DNA of 64,000 nucleotides from Candidatus Melainabacteria bacterium (GTDB lineage Bacteria > Cyanobacteriota > Vampirovibrionia > Obscuribacterales > Obscuribacteraceae): assembly GCA_012965515.1 (NCBI GenBank), contig DTSE01000214.1, positions 1 through 64,000 of the forward strand. Direction: 5' to 3'. The notes under the pieces are model-generated. The model did not search any database. It had not been told where the DNA came from and saw nothing but the letters and a program-made list of their open reading frames with translations. Every line of letters begins with the position of its first letter. The first letter of the stretch is position 1. Shown here in pieces: positions 399-39,750 of the stretch. The translations under genes were made by a program, and so were the position numbers.

Positions 399-407
399 TG
401 CGTATTT

Positions 408-487
408 GCCTGAATTTGGCCGGCTCGCGCCGTGAATTTGGCCGGTTGTAATGACATTCTTTGAGCGGATTTGCATTTAATTTGGCC
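408..487 (+). repeat. IS21 left-end transposase-binding repeats
   Basis: Three copies of a motif ending in AATTTGGCC lie at 408-421, 429-443 and 473-487. They are spaced 21 and 44 bp apart, fitting the 22-bp period of the right end with one degenerate position near 451-465. The orientation is inverted relative to the right-end set. Such subterminal repeats are the known IstA binding sites in IS21. Confidence 0.75.
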
Positions 488-523
488 GCCTGCCAAGCTG
501 ACGTGGAGAAGTGGGCTTGTGCG

Positions 524-1276
524 TTACGCTTTTGCGTCTTGCTCTTCCTTCTTTTTCTTTTTGCGCAGTGATTCACCTTGCAAAACGAGTCGATATGATT
601 CATGTACCACGCGGTCGAGAATTGCATCGGCAAGAGTTGCATTTTCGAAGGTTTGATACCAGTTTTCGACAGGCAATTGAGATGCGATCACAAGCGAACT
701 CTTGCCGCATCTGTCGTCAGTTACTTCTAAAAGATCTCTGCACTGTTCTTCTGAGACCGGCACCAGCGCAAAGTCATCGAGAACAAGCAGGTCGAATTTT
801 GCCAACTTTGAAAGCAATCGCGTGTAGCTGCCGTTGAGCCGTGCAACAGTCAGTTCTTGAAAGAATCTTGGCGCGCGCAAATATGCGGTGGTAAATCCCA
901 GACGGCAAGACTTTTGCGCAAAAGCGCAGGCAAGGTAGGTTTTACCGACACCCGTAGGTCCGGTAATTAAAACGTTTAATCCTTTTCTGATCCATTCGCA
1001 AGTAGCGAGTTGCCCAACCATTTTTCGGTCGAGTCCGCGTGCATGCTGAAAGTCAATATCTTCCAGAGATGCGGAGTGTCTGAGTTTTGCAACTTTCAAT
1101 CGTTGCACCAATTTTGCGCTTTCGCGATCGCTGTGCTCTGCATCGACTAGGAGACCAAAACGTTCATCAAATGAAAGCTTTGTGAGTTCTGGCATCTCCT
1201 GTTGCTGCTTGAATGCGTTAAGCATGCCTACTAGTTTTAGGTCAATTAGTTTGTCGATAGTTGGGTTATTTAGCAT
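524..1276 (-). CDS. istB: IS21 helper ATPase IstB
   Basis: IstB is the AAA+ ATPase that binds DNA, selects the target and stimulates the IstA transposase. The 250-residue protein has the family's usual length. A Walker A motif GPTGVGKT lies at residues 106-113 and a Walker B LLVLDD near 163-168. An AAAGGAG Shine-Dalgarno sequence stands shortly before the ATG. It follows istA after a 12-bp gap, so the two are co-transcribed. The tail is lysine-rich. I see no frameshift or missing motif. Confidence 0.95.
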   Translation of the reverse strand: MLNNPTIDKLIDLKLVGMLNAFKQQQEMPELTKLSFDERFGLLVDAEHSDRESAKLVQRLKVAKLRHSASLEDIDFQHARGLDRKMVGQLATCEWIRKGLNVLITGPTGVGKTYLACAFAQKSCRLGFTTAYLRAPRFFQELTVARLNGSYTRLLSKLAKFDLLVLDDFALVPVSEEQCRDLLEVTDDRCGKSSLVIASQLPVENWYQTFENATLADAILDRVVHESYRLVLQGESLRKKKKKEEQDAKA

Positions 1277-1288
1277 CGAGTTTCTCCT

Positions 1289-2833
1289 TTAGCTGAAATG
1301 TTCTGGACCTCGAATATTCGGATGAGTAATTCCGGCAAGATTGATCGATAGTTGCTCCGGCAGGTTTTCCAGCCCGTACTGCAACAAAGTTTTGACGAGA
1401 CGGTAACTCGGGTTACCTAGAGAAAGCGCGTGTTTGCAAGCCGCCTCGACCTTTTCGTCACCATGCATTTTTACCTGCGAGCTAAGGACTCCGAAGCACT
1501 GGTCGTAGCTCAATTGTGGGTATGGTTTTGAGGCAAGAATCGTGGCAATTACTTGCTCGGCTGATGGTCCGACCTGACGAGCCCAGCGCAGAAATTTTTC
1601 AACAGACATTCCTTGGTACGCCGCATGCGCTGGTGTCATGTGCTCATCTGCGGTTGTCTTCTCTCCGCTCGCCCAACTTCGAATGTGGCTCGCGATGCGA
1701 ACATTTTGGTGAAAAACTTCTACTGTTGAATCTGTCAGGCGAATATCGACTCGCTCTCCCGCCAGCCTGTATGGCACGGAGTAATGGTGTTCGTTAGCTC
1801 TTACGTGGTAGTCCTTCGGTACTTTAACGTTCAGCAACCATTCCTCAAACTCAAATTCCTGGCTTGGTAGTGGACGAAGCGCGGGTTTGTCAATTTCTTC
1901 AAAGCGACTACGACGGCATCCAGACATTTTTTGAAATGGCTCGTCGTTCAGCTCGACAAGGAGCCGTTGGATAGATTGGTTCACCTCATGAATGGAAAAG
2001 AATGTGACATTCCGTAGCCTCGCCAGAATCCACTGTTCAACAAGCTGAACAGCTTTTTCAACTTTGGCTTTGTCACGCGGACGATATGGTCTTGCCGGCG
2101 CCACACCGCAGCCGTAGTGCTGTGCAAGTCGTCGGTAGCTTTTGTTGATTCTCGGATCGAAACGTGTTGCTTCCGAAACTGCGCTTTTTAGATTGTCTGG
2201 GACAAGTATTTTGGGCACGCCTCCAAAGAAGCGAAATGTGCGCACATGGGCGCCGAGCCAGTTTTTCAATTCCTGCGATTCGCACGCTTCAGCATACGTG
2301 TAATTGCTAGCACCCATGGTTGCGACGAATATTTGGGCTTGATTTACTTCTCCGGTTTCTCTGCAAACAACTGGCACCGTCTGACCTGCAAAATCAAGAA
2401 ACAGCTTGTCTCCAGGCGCATGCGATTGCCGCATCACAACATCTTTCTTGCTTTGCCATTTGCGAAAGAGCTTGGAGAAATGCGCGTAGCAGTATGAAGC
2501 TTCCCGGTGCTGTTCTTGATACTCGTCCCAAAGCAAATTTAGAGTCACGCCCTTTTTTGCGAGCTCAGTTTCAATTTTTTCGTAGTCTGGTAGAACGTAT
2601 CGTTCTTTAGTCTTCTGCTTTGGCGGGTAGAGCAGCTTTTCCAGTTGCGCATCATCCAGGTCTTCCGGCAAAGGCCAGGTCAGCCCAAGTTCGGTAGCGC
2701 GCTTGATACATGTCTGCACGGAGCCCCGCGAGACATTCGTCATTCGGTGAATCTCATTGGCGCTGAGATTCAGCAGAAATGCCAACCTGATGATTTCTCT
2801 GTGTGCCTGCATGGACGTCCTCTCTCTGGGCAT
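1289..2833 (-). CDS. istA: IS21 transposase IstA
   Basis: IstA is the DDE-type transposase of the IS21 family, which carries out cut-and-paste strand transfer together with IstB. The 514-residue protein has an N-terminal helix-turn-helix (around residues 18-40, beginning NEIHRMTNVS). A retroviral-integrase-like core follows, with the first acidic residue in LFLDFAG, the second in VPDNLKSAV, and a glutamate in KAKVEKAV. The C-terminal region has the beta-rich character usual for IstA. The gene is uninterrupted and at its full expected length, and leads directly into istB. Confidence 0.95.
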   Translation of the reverse strand: MPRERTSMQAHREIIRLAFLLNLSANEIHRMTNVSRGSVQTCIKRATELGLTWPLPEDLDDAQLEKLLYPPKQKTKERYVLPDYEKIETELAKKGVTLNLLWDEYQEQHREASYCYAHFSKLFRKWQSKKDVVMRQSHAPGDKLFLDFAGQTVPVVCRETGEVNQAQIFVATMGASNYTYAEACESQELKNWLGAHVRTFRFFGGVPKILVPDNLKSAVSEATRFDPRINKSYRRLAQHYGCGVAPARPYRPRDKAKVEKAVQLVEQWILARLRNVTFFSIHEVNQSIQRLLVELNDEPFQKMSGCRRSRFEEIDKPALRPLPSQEFEFEEWLLNVKVPKDYHVRANEHHYSVPYRLAGERVDIRLTDSTVEVFHQNVRIASHIRSWASGEKTTADEHMTPAHAAYQGMSVEKFLRWARQVGPSAEQVIATILASKPYPQLSYDQCFGVLSSQVKMHGDEKVEAACKHALSLGNPSYRLVKTLLQYGLENLPEQLSINLAGITHPNIRGPEHFS

Positions 2834-2938
2834 CTAAGTTCTCCTGAGCGCTGAAAGCGAGGAGAAGAATCCCTTCTTGCCTTGGGTTCGTCCACTTTTG
2901 AACCAGAAATACTTGGTTTTCCACGCCGCTTTTCAAGC

Positions 2939-3041
2939 GGCCAAATTAAATGCAAATGCCGGCCAAATTAAATGCGCGCCCCGGCCAAATTGAATGCGCG
3001 AGCCGGCCAAATTCGTGGCGCGAGCCGGCCAAATTGAATGC
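2939..3041 (+). repeat. IS21 right-end repeats, 22-bp period
   Basis: Five copies of a 15-bp motif (GGCCAAATTRAATGC, one copy degenerate) begin at 2939, 2961, 2983, 3005 and 3027, a strict 22-bp period, so copies fall on nearly the same helical face. They lie inside the IS right end and mirror the left-end set. They also keep an open frame running into the Mrr-like gene, which creates a spurious upstream start at 2950. Confidence 0.85.
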
Positions 3042-3063
3042 AAATATGCAATTTAACGAGTGT

Positions 3064-3984
3064 ATGTGGATGACTCAATCTTCAAAAGCCTACGAACTTC
3101 TAACCAAAACCGTCTTTGAGGAACTGGCTAAACTCGAAGGGTGGAAAACACTCGAAATTACGCACAATAAAATCCTCAAAAGCCCGACTGGCGCAGAGCA
3201 TCAAATAGACGTCTATATGAAATACTAGCTACTTGGGCGGGAGCAAGAAATTGTCATCGAGTGCAAGGATTTTCAAAAGCCCGTTGACAAGCCGCGCCTA
3301 ATGGCATTCGTAGGCGTTGTGAAAGATCTGATGCGAGTGCAAGGCTTGTTTGTCACCAGAAAGGGTTTTGACAAGGGCAATATTACTCCTATTGCGGAGG
3401 CGCATAATATTGGACTGTACGTGCTTGATGACACAGACGAATATTCCATCAAATTCAACGCCGAATTACGCGAACATGTTGCACAAGTTGTGCAGTTAGG
3501 TTTCGCGCCAGATTACGATCCCGCGCCGTTTGACAGGCTCACGCATGTTGTTTGCGAAGACTGGCTTATTTACGATAAAAATGACATTTTGAAAACCAAT
3601 CTGCAAAAGCTGATGGACCAAGCGATGGAACAGTTGCTTGCACGGAATGCACCCATTGGCGAGCACATTACTCTTAATTTCAATAGCTCAAATGAGATGT
3701 TTATCCAGGATAGAAATGGTCAACTGGAAAAAACTCGGCTCTTGTCTGTTGTGTTTCAAAGACAAGTACGAACACGTGTCATGGAAGTAGACTTTAAGCT
3801 TACACACTTGCTTCAAATCATCACAAATGACAAAAAATACTATGTGAGTCAGAACGGAAAGATTTTTAGAGCTGATGAAGAAGTGCCAATTCCAATCGTT
3901 TTTGAATCCGCTGGACCGAATGGCACAGACATCCTCATTAATGTAATAACTCGCATAAGAAAAGACGAAGCAGATAGTAATTAG
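3064..3984 (+). pseudogene. Mrr-like restriction endonuclease, interrupted by in-frame TAG
   Basis: Mrr-type enzymes are PD-(D/E)XK endonucleases that cleave modified or foreign DNA. Reading from ATG 3070 (ATG 3064 is also possible), the sequence has the family pattern: an N-terminal helix, HQID with catalytic Asp at codon 47, then IECK with Glu and Lys at codons 64 and 66, and a V-T-x-x-GF segment typical of Mrr_cat. A TAG at 3226-3228 (codon 53) lies between Asp and ExK without any frame change; homology resumes immediately and runs to the TAA at 3982. The roughly 150-residue C-terminal part is unassigned. As written, the gene can yield only a 52-residue peptide or an N-terminally cut product from ATG 3301, which lacks the active site. 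An IS21 copy sits just upstream and would displace the native promoter. Readthrough or a sequencing error are alternatives to decay. Confidence 0.8.
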
Positions 3985-4004
3985 CAGACTCTCGGTGCTG
4001 TTTT

Positions 4005-5060
4005 ATGAACCAAAGCCCTTATGAAATACGAAAGTGTCTCTATTGTTTAAAGCCAAAAAATCATCTTCTACGAAAGAAAAAAGGCTTCAAATCTGACTTC
4101 ACTAAAGAACATGTCATGCATGACGCACTTCTGCCGCGCGAATTTACGGACGCTCCGACCCTTGTTGGCAGAATATGTGGTGAATGCAATACCAACAACT
4201 TTGGCAACACCATTGATCGCGAGTTGACGCGCAGTGGATATGAAGGCTTTCAGCGATATAAGGCTGGTATCAAACCTACCTCGAAGCTCAATGAACTAAA
4301 GCAGGGTGGATTAGGTTTCGGCGTGCAGCCTCCGGGAATGGACGAGTACATCCCTGCGAACGTAATACACAAAGATGATCAAGGCATACTAACAACAAAG
4401 ATAGAGCCATTTTTGCTGGTCTATTCTCGAAGGCAAGGAAAGAAAATTCAGATTAAGTTGAGCGACATTTCAACAATCAATAGTTTGGCGCAAAAGGAAG
4501 ATCTCGACTTAGAGCAATTTACTTTTGGTACAAATGGTTCAGAAGCAGATGACCAAAAGCTGATATCGGCGCTAAAGGCTCAAGGAATTGATATTCTCGC
4601 ATCGATATCAGAAACGCAGCCATCAGCACTCCTGATAACAGAGTACGCACCCTCTTCCGAAATGATACGGGCGCTAGCAAAAATCGCTTTCAACTATTTC
4701 GCTTTGATATGTGAGAAGACTGAGCCATCTGTTCCACTTATGTCCGACTTCGATGAAATTAGGGAATTCATAAAATCTGGTACGGAACCTGCAGGCGTTT
4801 TCTTCATTATGCAAGGTGCTGGCTTGTTACGCGGAAATGTTGGAGATCATTCCGCAGTTCTGAAGTATTCAGACGATTCATCAGCCCCTGCTGTCATAGT
4901 TCAAGTAAGCATTTTCAACTGCTTTACGTATTCATTTGTACTCAGCAGACAGCCACGTAGTGCTAATTTTCCAGAACCTCAAGCGCACAAATGGGACTTG
5001 AAGAAAAAGCGTTTCGGTCGAATACCACTTAACTTACTTATTCCGACATCAGAGCGATGA
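4005..5060 (+). CDS. HNH endonuclease-like protein
   Basis: The N-terminus resembles HNH_5-type nucleases. It has a CxxC pair (C11, C14), an EH pair (E35-H36) as the likely metal/catalytic site, and a second zinc knuckle CGEC followed by Asn (C58, C61, N62). An iD-like segment follows around residue 70. The remaining 270 residues have no recognised domain and are rich in helices and charged residues. It starts 20 bp after the Mrr-like gene, in the same direction, so it is probably co-transcribed with it and with the Rx5H gene downstream. HNH proteins of this kind occur in restriction and other defence settings; the exact target cannot be told from sequence. Confidence 0.65.
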   Translation: MNQSPYEIRKCLYCLKPKNHLLRKKKGFKSDFTKEHVMHDALLPREFTDAPTLVGRICGECNTNNFGNTIDRELTRSGYEGFQRYKAGIKPTSKLNELKQGGLGFGVQPPGMDEYIPANVIHKDDQGILTTKIEPFLLVYSRRQGKKIQIKLSDISTINSLAQKEDLDLEQFTFGTNGSEADDQKLISALKAQGIDILASISETQPSALLITEYAPSSEMIRALAKIAFNYFALICEKTEPSVPLMSDFDEIREFIKSGTEPAGVFFIMQGAGLLRGNVGDHSAVLKYSDDSSAPAVIVQVSIFNCFTYSFVLSRQPRSANFPEPQAHKWDLKKKRFGRIPLNLLIPTSER

Positions 5061-5110
5061 CTGCTAGTGATTGAGCCGATGCTGTACCCGCTCATGAGGA
5101 GCTAAAAAAA

Positions 5111-5917
5111 GTGAAATCTGAAAATGGTCCGGAAACAATTTCCAAAGTCTTTAACTCTACCGGCATTGATATGCTTAAACTTCGCAAAACGAAGGATTGG
5201 CCAACTATTCTTCGGATGATGCGTGTTTCCAATGATATTACCCTTTCTCCAGGAGTCGCTTTTCTGGTTAGTTTTAGACCGCCAAGTGCTCACTTGGACG
5301 TCCTTAATAACGGACTTCATTGGCACTTTGTTCGTTGGAATGCTGCCGTGGCTTCTGAGGCATTGACCATAGTGATAGATCCGTTGCGCAAGCATATTAA
5401 CGACAAGGATCACGGAATTTGGAATGTCATTCGAGAAAGACAATCTCTTAATGAACGATGGAGATTGCTGGAAGAGTATCTTTCAGAAAAGGATCATTGG
5501 AAACATTTGAAAAGCGCGAAAACAATTAGAGATAAGCTAATGGCTCACTATGATAATGCGCCTATTAACAAAGCATTCAATGACCTTCTCAACTTACATG
5601 AACAGGCAGGCCACGATGTGGTTCTTGGATGGCATATGCAAAGCTCAAATGACGGCGGCGTGTTAACTCGCAACAATATGGTTGACCAGCTTTTGAACAT
5701 TGCCTGGTTTCAGACCTATGGCATAGAACCTACAATCGCCGGACCCGACAGCGAGTCTATTGAAAAGGTCGCAAAATCTATAGAAGAATTTCTGAGTTTG
5801 ACTTCCAATTTTTTCCACGGAGTTGTACTTGCATATTGTGAACAGCATGACCTTATCAACAGCGATGGAGAGCCACCCTGGTATTTGAAGGAACGAATGC
5901 TCCAAGGCGAAAAGTGA
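5111..5917 (+). CDS. Protein with HEPN-type Rx5H motif (AbiU2-like candidate)
   Basis: The start is GTG 5111, ten bases after an AGGAG ribosome-binding site at 5096-5100. The 268-residue protein is soluble and mostly helical. Residues 137-148 contain KTIRDKLMAHYD, with R140 and H146 forming an Rx5H motif typical of HEPN ribonucleases and nucleic-acid-linked HEPN domains such as AbiU2. It lies 50 bp after the HNH-like gene in the same direction. In toxin-antitoxin and abortive-infection systems, HEPN proteins cleave RNA. No partner nucleotidyltransferase (MNT) gene is visible nearby. The assignment rests on the short motif and helical context, so it is tentative. Confidence 0.45.
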   Translation: MKSENGPETISKVFNSTGIDMLKLRKTKDWPTILRMMRVSNDITLSPGVAFLVSFRPPSAHLDVLNNGLHWHFVRWNAAVASEALTIVIDPLRKHINDKDHGIWNVIRERQSLNERWRLLEEYLSEKDHWKHLKSAKTIRDKLMAHYDNAPINKAFNDLLNLHEQAGHDVVLGWHMQSSNDGGVLTRNNMVDQLLNIAWFQTYGIEPTIAGPDSESIEKVAKSIEEFLSLTSNFFHGVVLAYCEQHDLINSDGEPPWYLKERMLQGEK

Positions 5918-5959
5918 GCGAACAACAATTGCGACAGCTGGTATCAATCTTCGTCGGTC

Positions 5960-6124
5960 TTAGCGAGTCGTATCCTGAATAGCAGCGAGGTTGCGTCTAG
6001 CCAGCGCCGTGTACTGATGAGTCTTTCCAAACTTCCTCTCACAGGCCTTTAATGAGTCAACAAGAGCTGACCGCGCCAGCTCTGGATGCCCTTCTTCTTC
6101 ATGAATTCGAGCTAGGTCAGTCTG
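5960..6124 (-). pseudogene. Orphan C-terminal TPR fragment
   Basis: A 54-codon open stretch on the minus strand ends at TAA 5962-5960 and is bounded upstream by TGA 6127-6125. It encodes a TPR-like helix pair (LARIHEEEG, then LARSALVDSLK, then YTALARRNLAAI), of the kind seen at the ends of TPR proteins in this window. No start codon is present in frame, so this is a remnant of a longer gene whose upstream part is gone. Confidence 0.55.
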
Positions 6125-6352
6125 TCACTTTCAACAGTAAAAGAACTTTTTGGTTCGCCAAGAAAGCACACGATTTATGGAGACGAAATCTACATATTTG
6201 ATGCGCGCGGTATCTGGGGTGATGAAGAAAACACCTACCACATCGATCTAGTATTTGATTCTGAAGAAGTGGTTAGCGCATACAGAGTGAGAGGTATCGG
6301 AATTTCAATGCCACTTTGGATAAAAAACGGGAAAACAAGCATTTTGCCGTGA
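6116..6352 (+). pseudogene. 5'-truncated gene fragment, BamE/SmpA-like tail
   Basis: A plus-strand frame opens after TAG 6113-6115 and runs to TGA 6350-6352 without a usable start codon. The residues read like a real beta-rich domain: KELFGSPRK, IYGDEIYIFDARG, then IDLVFDSEEVVSAYRV. The pattern (a G-x-P turn, then alternating strands ending in a Fd-x-x-x-V strand) resembles the end of small BamE/SmpA-fold envelope proteins, but this is weak. It abuts the minus-strand TPR fragment, so a deletion or rearrangement breakpoint probably lies near 6113-6127. Confidence 0.45.
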
Positions 6353-6371
6353 TTTGACGCGCAGCAAATGC

Positions 6372-7307
6372 TTAGGGAGCCTCACATTCCGGATACTCTA
6401 AATACTTTTCTCGCGGTACAGCACGATATCCGGGCGAAGGTCCATACCTCCGATTATCGAATGTAAAAACCACTTCGAAAGAGGGCTGTTCAATGTCGTC
6501 AGGAAATTTGAGCACTTCTTTCCCATTTACTCTCCGAACGCTTTCAATAACAAGAAGATTGAACTCGTTGTTAGATGAAGGGTCCACTATTGCAATGTCT
6601 TTCAACTGACGGTCTCTCGTGACTTTGAACCGAACAACGGCTTTTAGCTTCGGTGACGTGAGTCGGGCTCTCTTGCTGAGCGCTAAGAACGTGGACTCGA
6701 TCGGCTTACTGATTCGTGATTTCCATTCATCCCAGACATCAACGAAAGGGCGATTGCGCACGCCTCCATGTGGAACCCTGCTAACGTCCTTAAACCCAAA
6801 AGTCTCCGTGGAAGTCATATCAATAAACTCACGGTTGGAAGAATCTGGAAACTTAAGCAACTCACTTCCATTCATACTGCTGATTGCATCAAGGACCATT
6901 GAATCAAAGTCTCGATTGGTACTTTGGGCGAAAATTTCAGCTTTTAACACCTGACGATCTTTAACAACCCTGAAAGCTACAACAGTCCTCAATTCTTGTG
7001 ATTTTGGTATTCCAGTCTTTCTGCATTTATCTGCTACGCTTTGGTGAATTGCAGTGCGAACTCTGAGAAACCATTGATCCCAAGCTAATCTCAATTGCTC
7101 ATCGGTTTCCTCAGTTGATACTATTTCCGAATCAGACACTTTTTTCTTTGGTGGCGGAAGGAATTTTTCCAGCGAATTTTCTTCACCAGAGACCGAGGTG
7201 CTTTGATTTCGTTCAATTTGAGATGCGTTATGTGGTTCTGCAAGGACTTTTGTACCAAGCGAACCGAACAGAAATGCAACGAATAGAATTTGCCTGCAAG
7301 TACTCGT
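6372..7307 (-). CDS. Secreted protein with two TonB-C-like domains, probable ACG start
   Basis: Two tandem copies of a TonB/TolA C-terminal-like domain are visible. Each begins with a Trp-rich AWDQW or VWDEW segment, then a VVAFRV or VVRFKV strand with KDRQ or RDRQ turns, and ends in KFPD. A canonical start exists only at GTG 7139. However, the frame stays open upstream and encodes a clear signal peptide (hydrophobic FVAFLFG, cleavage after VLA) and a proline/lysine linker. An AGAGGA ribosome-binding site (7320-7315) sits 7 bases before an ACG at 7307-7305, exactly where an ATG should be. The start is probably mutated or non-canonical. The signal peptide replaces the usual TonB membrane anchor, so this is a periplasmic or secreted relative, not a true TonB. 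A paralogue of this style lies at 57022-57888. Confidence 0.65.
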   Translation of the reverse strand, partial: TSTCRQILFVAFLFGSLGTKVLAEPHNASQIERNQSTSVSGEENSLEKFLPPPKKKVSDSEIVSTEETDEQLRLAWDQWFLRVRTAIHQSVADKCRKTGIPKSQELRTVVAFRVVKDRQVLKAEIFAQSTNRDFDSMVLDAISSMNGSELLKFPDSSNREFIDMTSTETFGFKDVSRVPHGGVRNRPFVDVWDEWKSRISKPIESTFLALSKRARLTSPKLKAVVRFKVTRDRQLKDIAIVDPSSNNEFNLLVIESVRRVNGKEVLKFPDDIEQPSFEVVFTFDNRRYGPSPGYRAVPREKYLEYPECEAP

Positions 7308-7985: not shown

Positions 7986-8459
7986 CTAACGTTCGCGCAC
8001 AAAGTGGATCGTTTCGTCGGTAGTTGAACTTGTCAAAATCAACCCGTCCTCTCTGACAAAACCTTCTCTAAGAGCAAAGAACTCCTTCGATGGTTTCGCC
8101 TCACCCTCTTTTACAACAGTCCTAAACGAAAATTTCTTTCGAACATTAGGATCAAAGAGATCAACTACGTGTTTTTCTGGTTTTCCTTGTATTAGTAGGA
8201 CGTGGCGACGAGTTTCGATTGCCAGTCTGTAGCACTTCGAATGTGGACGATATTGGCGAAAAGGCTTGATTTCGACCCACAAACCAAACTCCGGCAGCCA
8301 AAAGTCCGGCGTATATTTGTCGGTGCCCAAGTCAACTTTGATGAACTCGTATTTGTGACGAATCTGGTTTTGGTCAAAGAACTCTGCCCACATTGCTTCC
8401 AATCTACTGCGATACAAGATGCCACCGTATTCGGTGTCTATAGCTTTATGCATGCTCAA
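7986..8459 (-). CDS. PD-(D/E)XK nuclease-like protein
   Basis: This 157-residue protein has the pattern of small PD-(D/E)XK nucleases. It begins with a YRSRLEAMWA helix (E21), followed by a YEF strand, then YTPDFWLP (D52) and WVEIKP (E63, K65). These are the expected catalytic Glu, Asp, Glu and Lys. Families with the SRLEA..PDF..VEIK layout occur in phages and mobile regions and as stand-alone genes. It stands alone between small genes; the substrate is unknown. The likely start is ATG 8459, with ATG 8453 as an alternative. Confidence 0.65.
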   Translation of the reverse strand: MSMHKAIDTEYGGILYRSRLEAMWAEFFDQNQIRHKYEFIKVDLGTDKYTPDFWLPEFGLWVEIKPFRQYRPHSKCYRLAIETRRHVLLIQGKPEKHVVDLFDPNVRKKFSFRTVVKEGEAKPSKEFFALREGFVREDGLILTSSTTDETIHFVRER

Positions 8460-39286: not shown

Positions 39287-39750
39287 ACTTTTCCATCATA
39301 GCGAAAGCGCGCTCTCCGTCTAGTCCTTCGAAGATGAGAATTGTAAGGCAATTGTGTAGACGTTTACAAACCGCTGTTCATAGGATTTTCCGAAACACCA
39401 CAAAAAACCACATCATCGCGCGCGCTCTTAGCTTGCCTGAAATGAAGGGCGTAAAGGAACCATGGAACGCATTTACAAATCAAAGATTAGAAATTTGCTT
39501 AGTAAATTGGATGGTCCACTAGCGTGACGCGATTCGGCTTCGGCTAGCAGTCCGCGGAAGAAATCGCGAAAATTCCGCTCCCATCCTACTAAATGTTAGG
39601 ACTGCCGGTTTCCCGTACGGTTCCTTCCGTTTCGGACTTTTCTCGTAAAGTTTGAATATTAAAACGCGCCGCAACGGGTATAAGACACCCGGAAGCCTTA
39701 ATCTGTTTGCCTTTTGAGGTAAACTTGCGAAGGATTATTCGGGGCTCTGC
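39287..39750. other. Divergent promoter region of Tad-type operon and kinase
   Basis: The region lies between divergently transcribed genes and must hold both promoters, but I cannot find a good -35/-10 pair. An AT-rich TTTGAATATTAAAA (39650-39663) may belong to the kinase promoter. No coding frame looks real. Confidence 0.35.

Follow-up and report, generated by a model that had tools for sequence, protein, structure and literature searches.

Three groups of nucleases with a part in bacterial immunity bear on the locus described here: the Mrr or type IV restriction nucleases, the HNH nucleases and the HEPN ribonucleases. The HEPN motif is written Rx4-6H, with a polar residue after the arginine (PMC3710099), and HEPN domains have been reported fused to DNase domains of the REase and HNH folds (PMC3710099). 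A further system with a PD-(D/E)XK component, PD-Lambda-3, has been published as an abortive system (PMC13190303).

The stretch of DNA analysed here, referred to as the window, is 64,000 nucleotides long and forms the beginning of contig C214, which belongs to a genome bin of 6.3 Mb from an uncultured, non-photosynthetic relative of the cyanobacteria. A preliminary description of the window had pointed out three neighbouring genes with nuclease motifs and had considered them as a possible system, to be supported by conserved co-occurrence in other genomes. The present results bear out the genes and the conservation of their motifs within the families, but not an intact system of three nucleases; the locus resembles a remnant assortment of defence-type genes more than an established new immune system of three parts.

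Structure of the locus

The features at the left end of the window are as follows.

399 to 3050, minus strand: IS21-family element, from NCBIfam matches, inverted ends and target duplication
524 to 1276, minus strand: istB (NCBIfam IS21_help_AAA, 2.4e-74)
1289 to 2833, minus strand: istA (NCBIfam transpos_IS21, 1.5e-82)
3070 to 3984, plus strand: gene A, Mrr-type PD-(D/E)XK nuclease, pseudogene (Pfam PF04471, Mrr_cat)
4005 to 5060, plus strand: gene B, HNH_5-type nuclease with CxxC/EH/CxxCN (family invariants; Pfam HNH_5 in relatives)
5111 to 5917, plus strand: gene C, R140-D-x4-H146 protein, candidate HEPN RNase (motif; GTG start after a GAGGAG site)
5918 to 6360: gene relics, a broken TPR-like frame on the minus strand and a broken frame on the plus strand (six-frame reading)

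Genes A, B and C are consecutive on the plus strand, with the gaps of 20 bp between A and B and 50 bp between B and C that had been described. Their G+C content is 0.43, compared to 0.48 for the remainder of the window. The insertion sequence noted at the left edge is a complete IS21 element with istA and istB, where the inverted ends at 413-445 and 3003-3035 are 94% complementary and a 6-bp target duplication, ATTTAA, can be read at 393-398 and 3051-3056. A ladder of 22-bp repeats (CGGCCAAATT...) occupies 2938-3047 within its right end, and the left end partly mirrors this ladder. The end of the element and the start codon (ATG) of gene A are 19 bp apart, so that the element probably cuts the genes off from their former promoter; on the plus strand from the element to gene C, no promoter-like site came up in a simple scan, which is weak evidence.

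At the right edge, where relics had been reported, only frame-broken fragments lie between 5918 and 6360; the TPR-like identity of the minus-strand fragment was judged by eye, and a search of the genome for a second copy of these relics found none. At 7986-8459, on the minus strand, there is a fourth nuclease-like gene, which encodes a small protein with a weak Phage_endo_I match and a TPDFWLP...EIK pattern. The DNA from 9 to 64 kb carries ordinary chromosomal genes, as judged by eye, and a CyVA-1 RNA (Rfam RF02965, 43 bits) lies on the minus strand at 39509-39586. The right flank of A-C, within the window, contains no further recognised defence genes. The genomes used here are draft bins, in which neighbours are hidden at contig ends, including everything to the left of the window. 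The earlier suggestion of a defence or accessory island is supported in its accessory part, given the lower G+C content, the IS21 element and the mobile genes beside relatives, and not as a defence island, given the chromosomal genes from 9 to 64 kb and the contig end on the left.

Genes A and B

The read-through frame of gene A matches Mrr_cat (PF04471) with an E-value of 2.4e-8 and 34.5 bits, where the cut-off is 21, and the same match was obtained for all 12 members of the A family. In the alignment of these 12 proteins, every member has D47; E or Q stands at position 64, and K stands at position 66 in 11 members, with R in the remaining one. The family and the catalytic residues D47, E64 and K66 given in the preliminary description are therefore upheld, but not a single intact catalytic protein, since an in-frame amber codon, TAG, at 3226-3228 replaces codon 53, which lies between D47 and E64 and is a sense codon in the aligned relatives. 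With this stop codon, an intact Mrr protein is not encoded; the ATG frame that is left, 3301-3984, starts past all three catalytic residues, and the Mrr gene is presumably dead. Recoding of the amber codon was considered and rejected; it is unlikely because TAG is a normal terminator in the window, ending 11 of the 26 genes examined, gene A among them. The weak PADLOC matches of A are to the defence candidates PDC-S02 and mREase_IV.

In gene B, the CxxC/EH/CxxCN set of an HNH nuclease is present as described, and all seven of its residues (C11, C14, E35, H36, C58, C61 and N62) are invariant in the seven aligned members of the family. Six of the seven members scanned match Pfam HNH_5 (PF14279), the best with 3.3e-10 and the member at L047 with 32.5 bits against a cut-off of 27.5; the window protein is the one without a match. 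The family also has a conserved C-terminal domain, AKIAFNY...FN...H-W, with a block around R222-Y231, H282, F304 and H328, part of which corresponds to PHROG 35254 (function unknown; 3.5e-6 in the L047 member). Comparison of A and B with solved structures gave no useful match.

Gene C as a candidate HEPN ribonuclease

Three versions of the C protein are known. Besides that of the window, there is a copy with 57% identity, carried by G006 and at another place in the window genome, and a relative with 24% identity in G339. R140, D/N141 and H146 are kept in all three, and a motif conserved to the same degree was reached in 101 of 20,000 column shuffles (0.5%). The spacing and the polar residue of this motif fit the published HEPN motif. 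A match to C in G128 was rejected, as it sits within an ATP synthase cluster.

The profile searches with C gave no Pfam match over the cut-off and no match in PADLOC, NCBIfam or PHROG. A profile comparison with a DUF4145 protein indicated no relation, and AbiU2 was rejected as the family of C, with PF18734 giving nothing over the cut-off in the order and nothing in the genome. Among solved structures there was no useful match, the best being a short uncharacterised protein with an E-value of 0.017. AlphaFold models of C, with two sequences, are helical but unreliable, at pLDDT values of 39 and 36. As no library names C and the models are unusable, its assignment as a HEPN protein is plausible, a good lead and not a result; the conservation of the Rx5H motif (R140, H146) speaks for the earlier proposal, and the profile searches do not.

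These findings also bear on an explanation outside defence, in which the genes are nucleases of mobile elements, such as homing-type HNH genes and restriction genes carried by the elements, that stayed behind at a degraded site of integration, and C is an unrelated helical protein with a coincidental Rx5H. The missing HEPN profile match and the unreliable models of C are consistent with this explanation, as are the conjugation genes often found beside B relatives and the right flank with no other recognised defence genes. It is opposed by the invariance of R-D/N-x4-H in three of three C proteins, reached in 0.5% of column shuffles, and by the place of A in the Mrr_cat family with its matches, albeit weak, to defence candidates. 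We regard it as unlikely.

Co-occurrence of the three genes

Relatives of the genes were sought across the order (53 genomes) and the phylum (386 genomes), and on plasmids, phages and viral contigs. In neither the order nor the phylum samples was a second A+B+C trio found; conserved co-occurrence, which had been named as support for a system, was not borne out, and a trio acting as one system is not supported. Among the 53 genomes, A is present in nine and B in eight, and both in three (G000, G343 and G314). Two of these three, the window genome G000 and G343, have A next to B; in G314 the two genes lie on separate contigs. At the G343 locus (L037), B at 5212-6231 is followed directly by A at about 6278-7201, so that the order is reversed with respect to the window; this B is a distant relative, C is missing, and a J-domain plus integrase gene follows, as judged by eye. 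The chance of random A-B adjacency in G343 is about 1e-3. In the phylum (386 genomes), no genome besides the host has both A and B with E below 1e-5.

C occurs in three genomes. Neither A nor B adjoins its close copy, whether in the window genome or in G006, and its relative in G339 is flanked by an HNH gene on one side and a PD-(D/E)XK gene on the other. At that locus (L018:6022-8105, contig G339:C182), the frame-broken HNH gene, the C relative and the PD-Lambda-3_A-like PD-(D/E)XK gene are on one strand. The PD-(D/E)XK protein has a PD...ExK pattern and is related to PD-Lambda-3_A (PADLOC 1.1e-15); it was rejected as a relative of A, with an hhalign probability of 0.9%. The C-terminal part of the HNH gene is different from that of B.

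Further A relatives are located at 11 loci in eight other genomes of the order, where the neighbours vary and include PIN and STAND NTPase proteins, DUF4145, an OLD-like ATPase and proteins unnamed in Pfam. No relatives of B or C were found on phages and viral contigs or on plasmids, and none within about 4 kb of A at the eight of 15 plasmid matches examined, which are from Acinetobacter, E. coli, Vibrio, Acetobacter, Pantoea, Pseudomonas, Piscirickettsia and Salinivibrio. From the order, phylum and plasmid neighbourhoods, the trio is unique within the searched data, and its pairs recur weakly.

The two partial pairings, A+B once and C+HNH+PD-(D/E)XK once, sustain a weaker, modular version of a system. 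Such a system would be a loosely modular multi-nuclease defence that pairs HNH with PD-(D/E)XK nucleases, to which a HEPN RNase may be added. Its parts would be swapped for non-homologous ones of the same class, and the copy in the window would be damaged. The DNA would be cut first, with the RNase as a back-up. The A-B adjacency in two of three genomes, improbable at random in G343, the distant C relative between an HNH gene and a PD-Lambda-3_A-related gene, and the published HEPN fusions with REase- and HNH-fold DNase domains (PMC3710099) all point in this direction. The details of the two loci do not: G343 has A and B in reversed order and is missing C, the PD-(D/E)XK gene of G339 is unrelated to A and stands with a broken HNH gene of different C-terminal part, and most relatives have other neighbours. 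This modular system is a weaker alternative, possible but rather unlikely. Unlikely, too, is a modular defence system in which HNH and PD-(D/E)XK nucleases would constitute one unit with a new family of HEPN-like RNases, its slots filled by interchangeable non-homologous proteins, broken in the window and partial in G339 and G343.

Mobile surroundings of the relatives

Elsewhere, the relatives of these genes are found mostly singly or in twos, on mobile DNA, and integrase, plasmid-type or conjugation genes are often close to them. Related conjugation genes lie near the B relatives at L011, L048 and L050, and related replicon-type genes lie near B at L010, near A at L034 and L040, and near the C copies at L009/L013. 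One replicon-type marker gene occurs within 10.5 kb of five of the 21 A, B and C relatives, where 0.16 are expected under random placement; the corresponding P of about 3e-7 is optimistic, because the 10.5 kb limit was picked after the distances had been seen and some related loci were counted as independent.

Several of these loci have other features. A helix-turn-helix/coiled-coil family, present in 35 of the 53 order genomes (for example at L010:9118-9870), is a marker of the mobile modules of replicon type that lie close to relatives of A, B and C. At L050:8094-10991 (G340:C26), a B-family HNH gene is the immediate neighbour of a CBASS-type pair of SMODS CD-NTase and S_4TM effector, and conjugation genes are close by. 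At L013:7545-13442, which is the same locus as L009, three proteins lie next to the C copy: one of AbiJ_NTD3/DUF559 type, one of DUF4365 type and one of 261 aa, the last of which is related to the neighbour of an A relative at L039.

Proposed explanation of the locus

The gene content, the motifs, the damage, the IS21 insertion and the mobile genes beside relatives were observed directly, and the locus is probably an accessory cassette in decay, made up of defence-type nuclease genes that are each mobile in their own right. We infer the biochemical activities, the defence purpose and the independence of the parts. Mobile DNA would have gathered three nuclease-type genes of the anti-phage or anti-plasmid kind, and an IS21 element was inserted just ahead of gene A. 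From knowledge of the Mrr family, A would once have cut foreign or modified DNA, an activity presumably now lost. B, if expressed, would most likely use its HNH centre to cut invading DNA, and its C-terminal domain would pick the target. C would most likely be a separate HEPN-type RNase, which, from what is known of the family, would cut RNA and halt the growth of infected cells. The genes most likely work singly or as interchangeable pairs, and not as an obligatory three-part machine.

Against the cassette stand the two partial recurrences in G343 and G339, where the same nuclease classes come together in excess of plain random placement, although such recurrences would be more probable where mobile cargo is clustered.

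At present, the locus serves chiefly as a caution against taking a cluster of nuclease motifs for a system. Its divergent Mrr and HNH families, together with a HEPN-like family that has no name, also enlarge the accessory gene pool of an order that is uncultured and little studied, where they are seen next to one kind of replicon module and next to conjugation genes. If the pairing of HNH and PD-(D/E)XK nucleases, with or without HEPN, is general, it would point to a system absent from the defence library searched.

Comparison with known systems

Gene A resembles the Mrr or type IV restriction nucleases (PF04471) in the catalytic domain with D47, E/Q64 and K66, and most A relatives are stand-alone genes, as those nucleases are. 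It differs in that a stop codon interrupts the window gene and in that the N-terminal catalytic domain is followed by a C-terminal part unnamed in Pfam. The HNH_5 nucleases (PF14279), which six of seven family members match, have the CxxC...EH...CxxCN layout in common with B, whereas the window protein is below detection and the conserved C-terminal domain matches PHROG 35254 only.

Like the HEPN RNases (AbiU2, DUF4145 and related families), C has a polar residue after the arginine and a histidine after a spacer of five, and it is helical in its unreliable models; unlike them, it has no profile match to any HEPN family, and its HEPN fold is putative. With respect to PD-lambda-3, the window does not contain the PD-(D/E)XK gene concerned, which is unrelated to A, and C matches no PADLOC PD-lambda-3 model; the likeness lies in G339, where a relative of that system's PD-(D/E)XK component stands next to the distant C relative.
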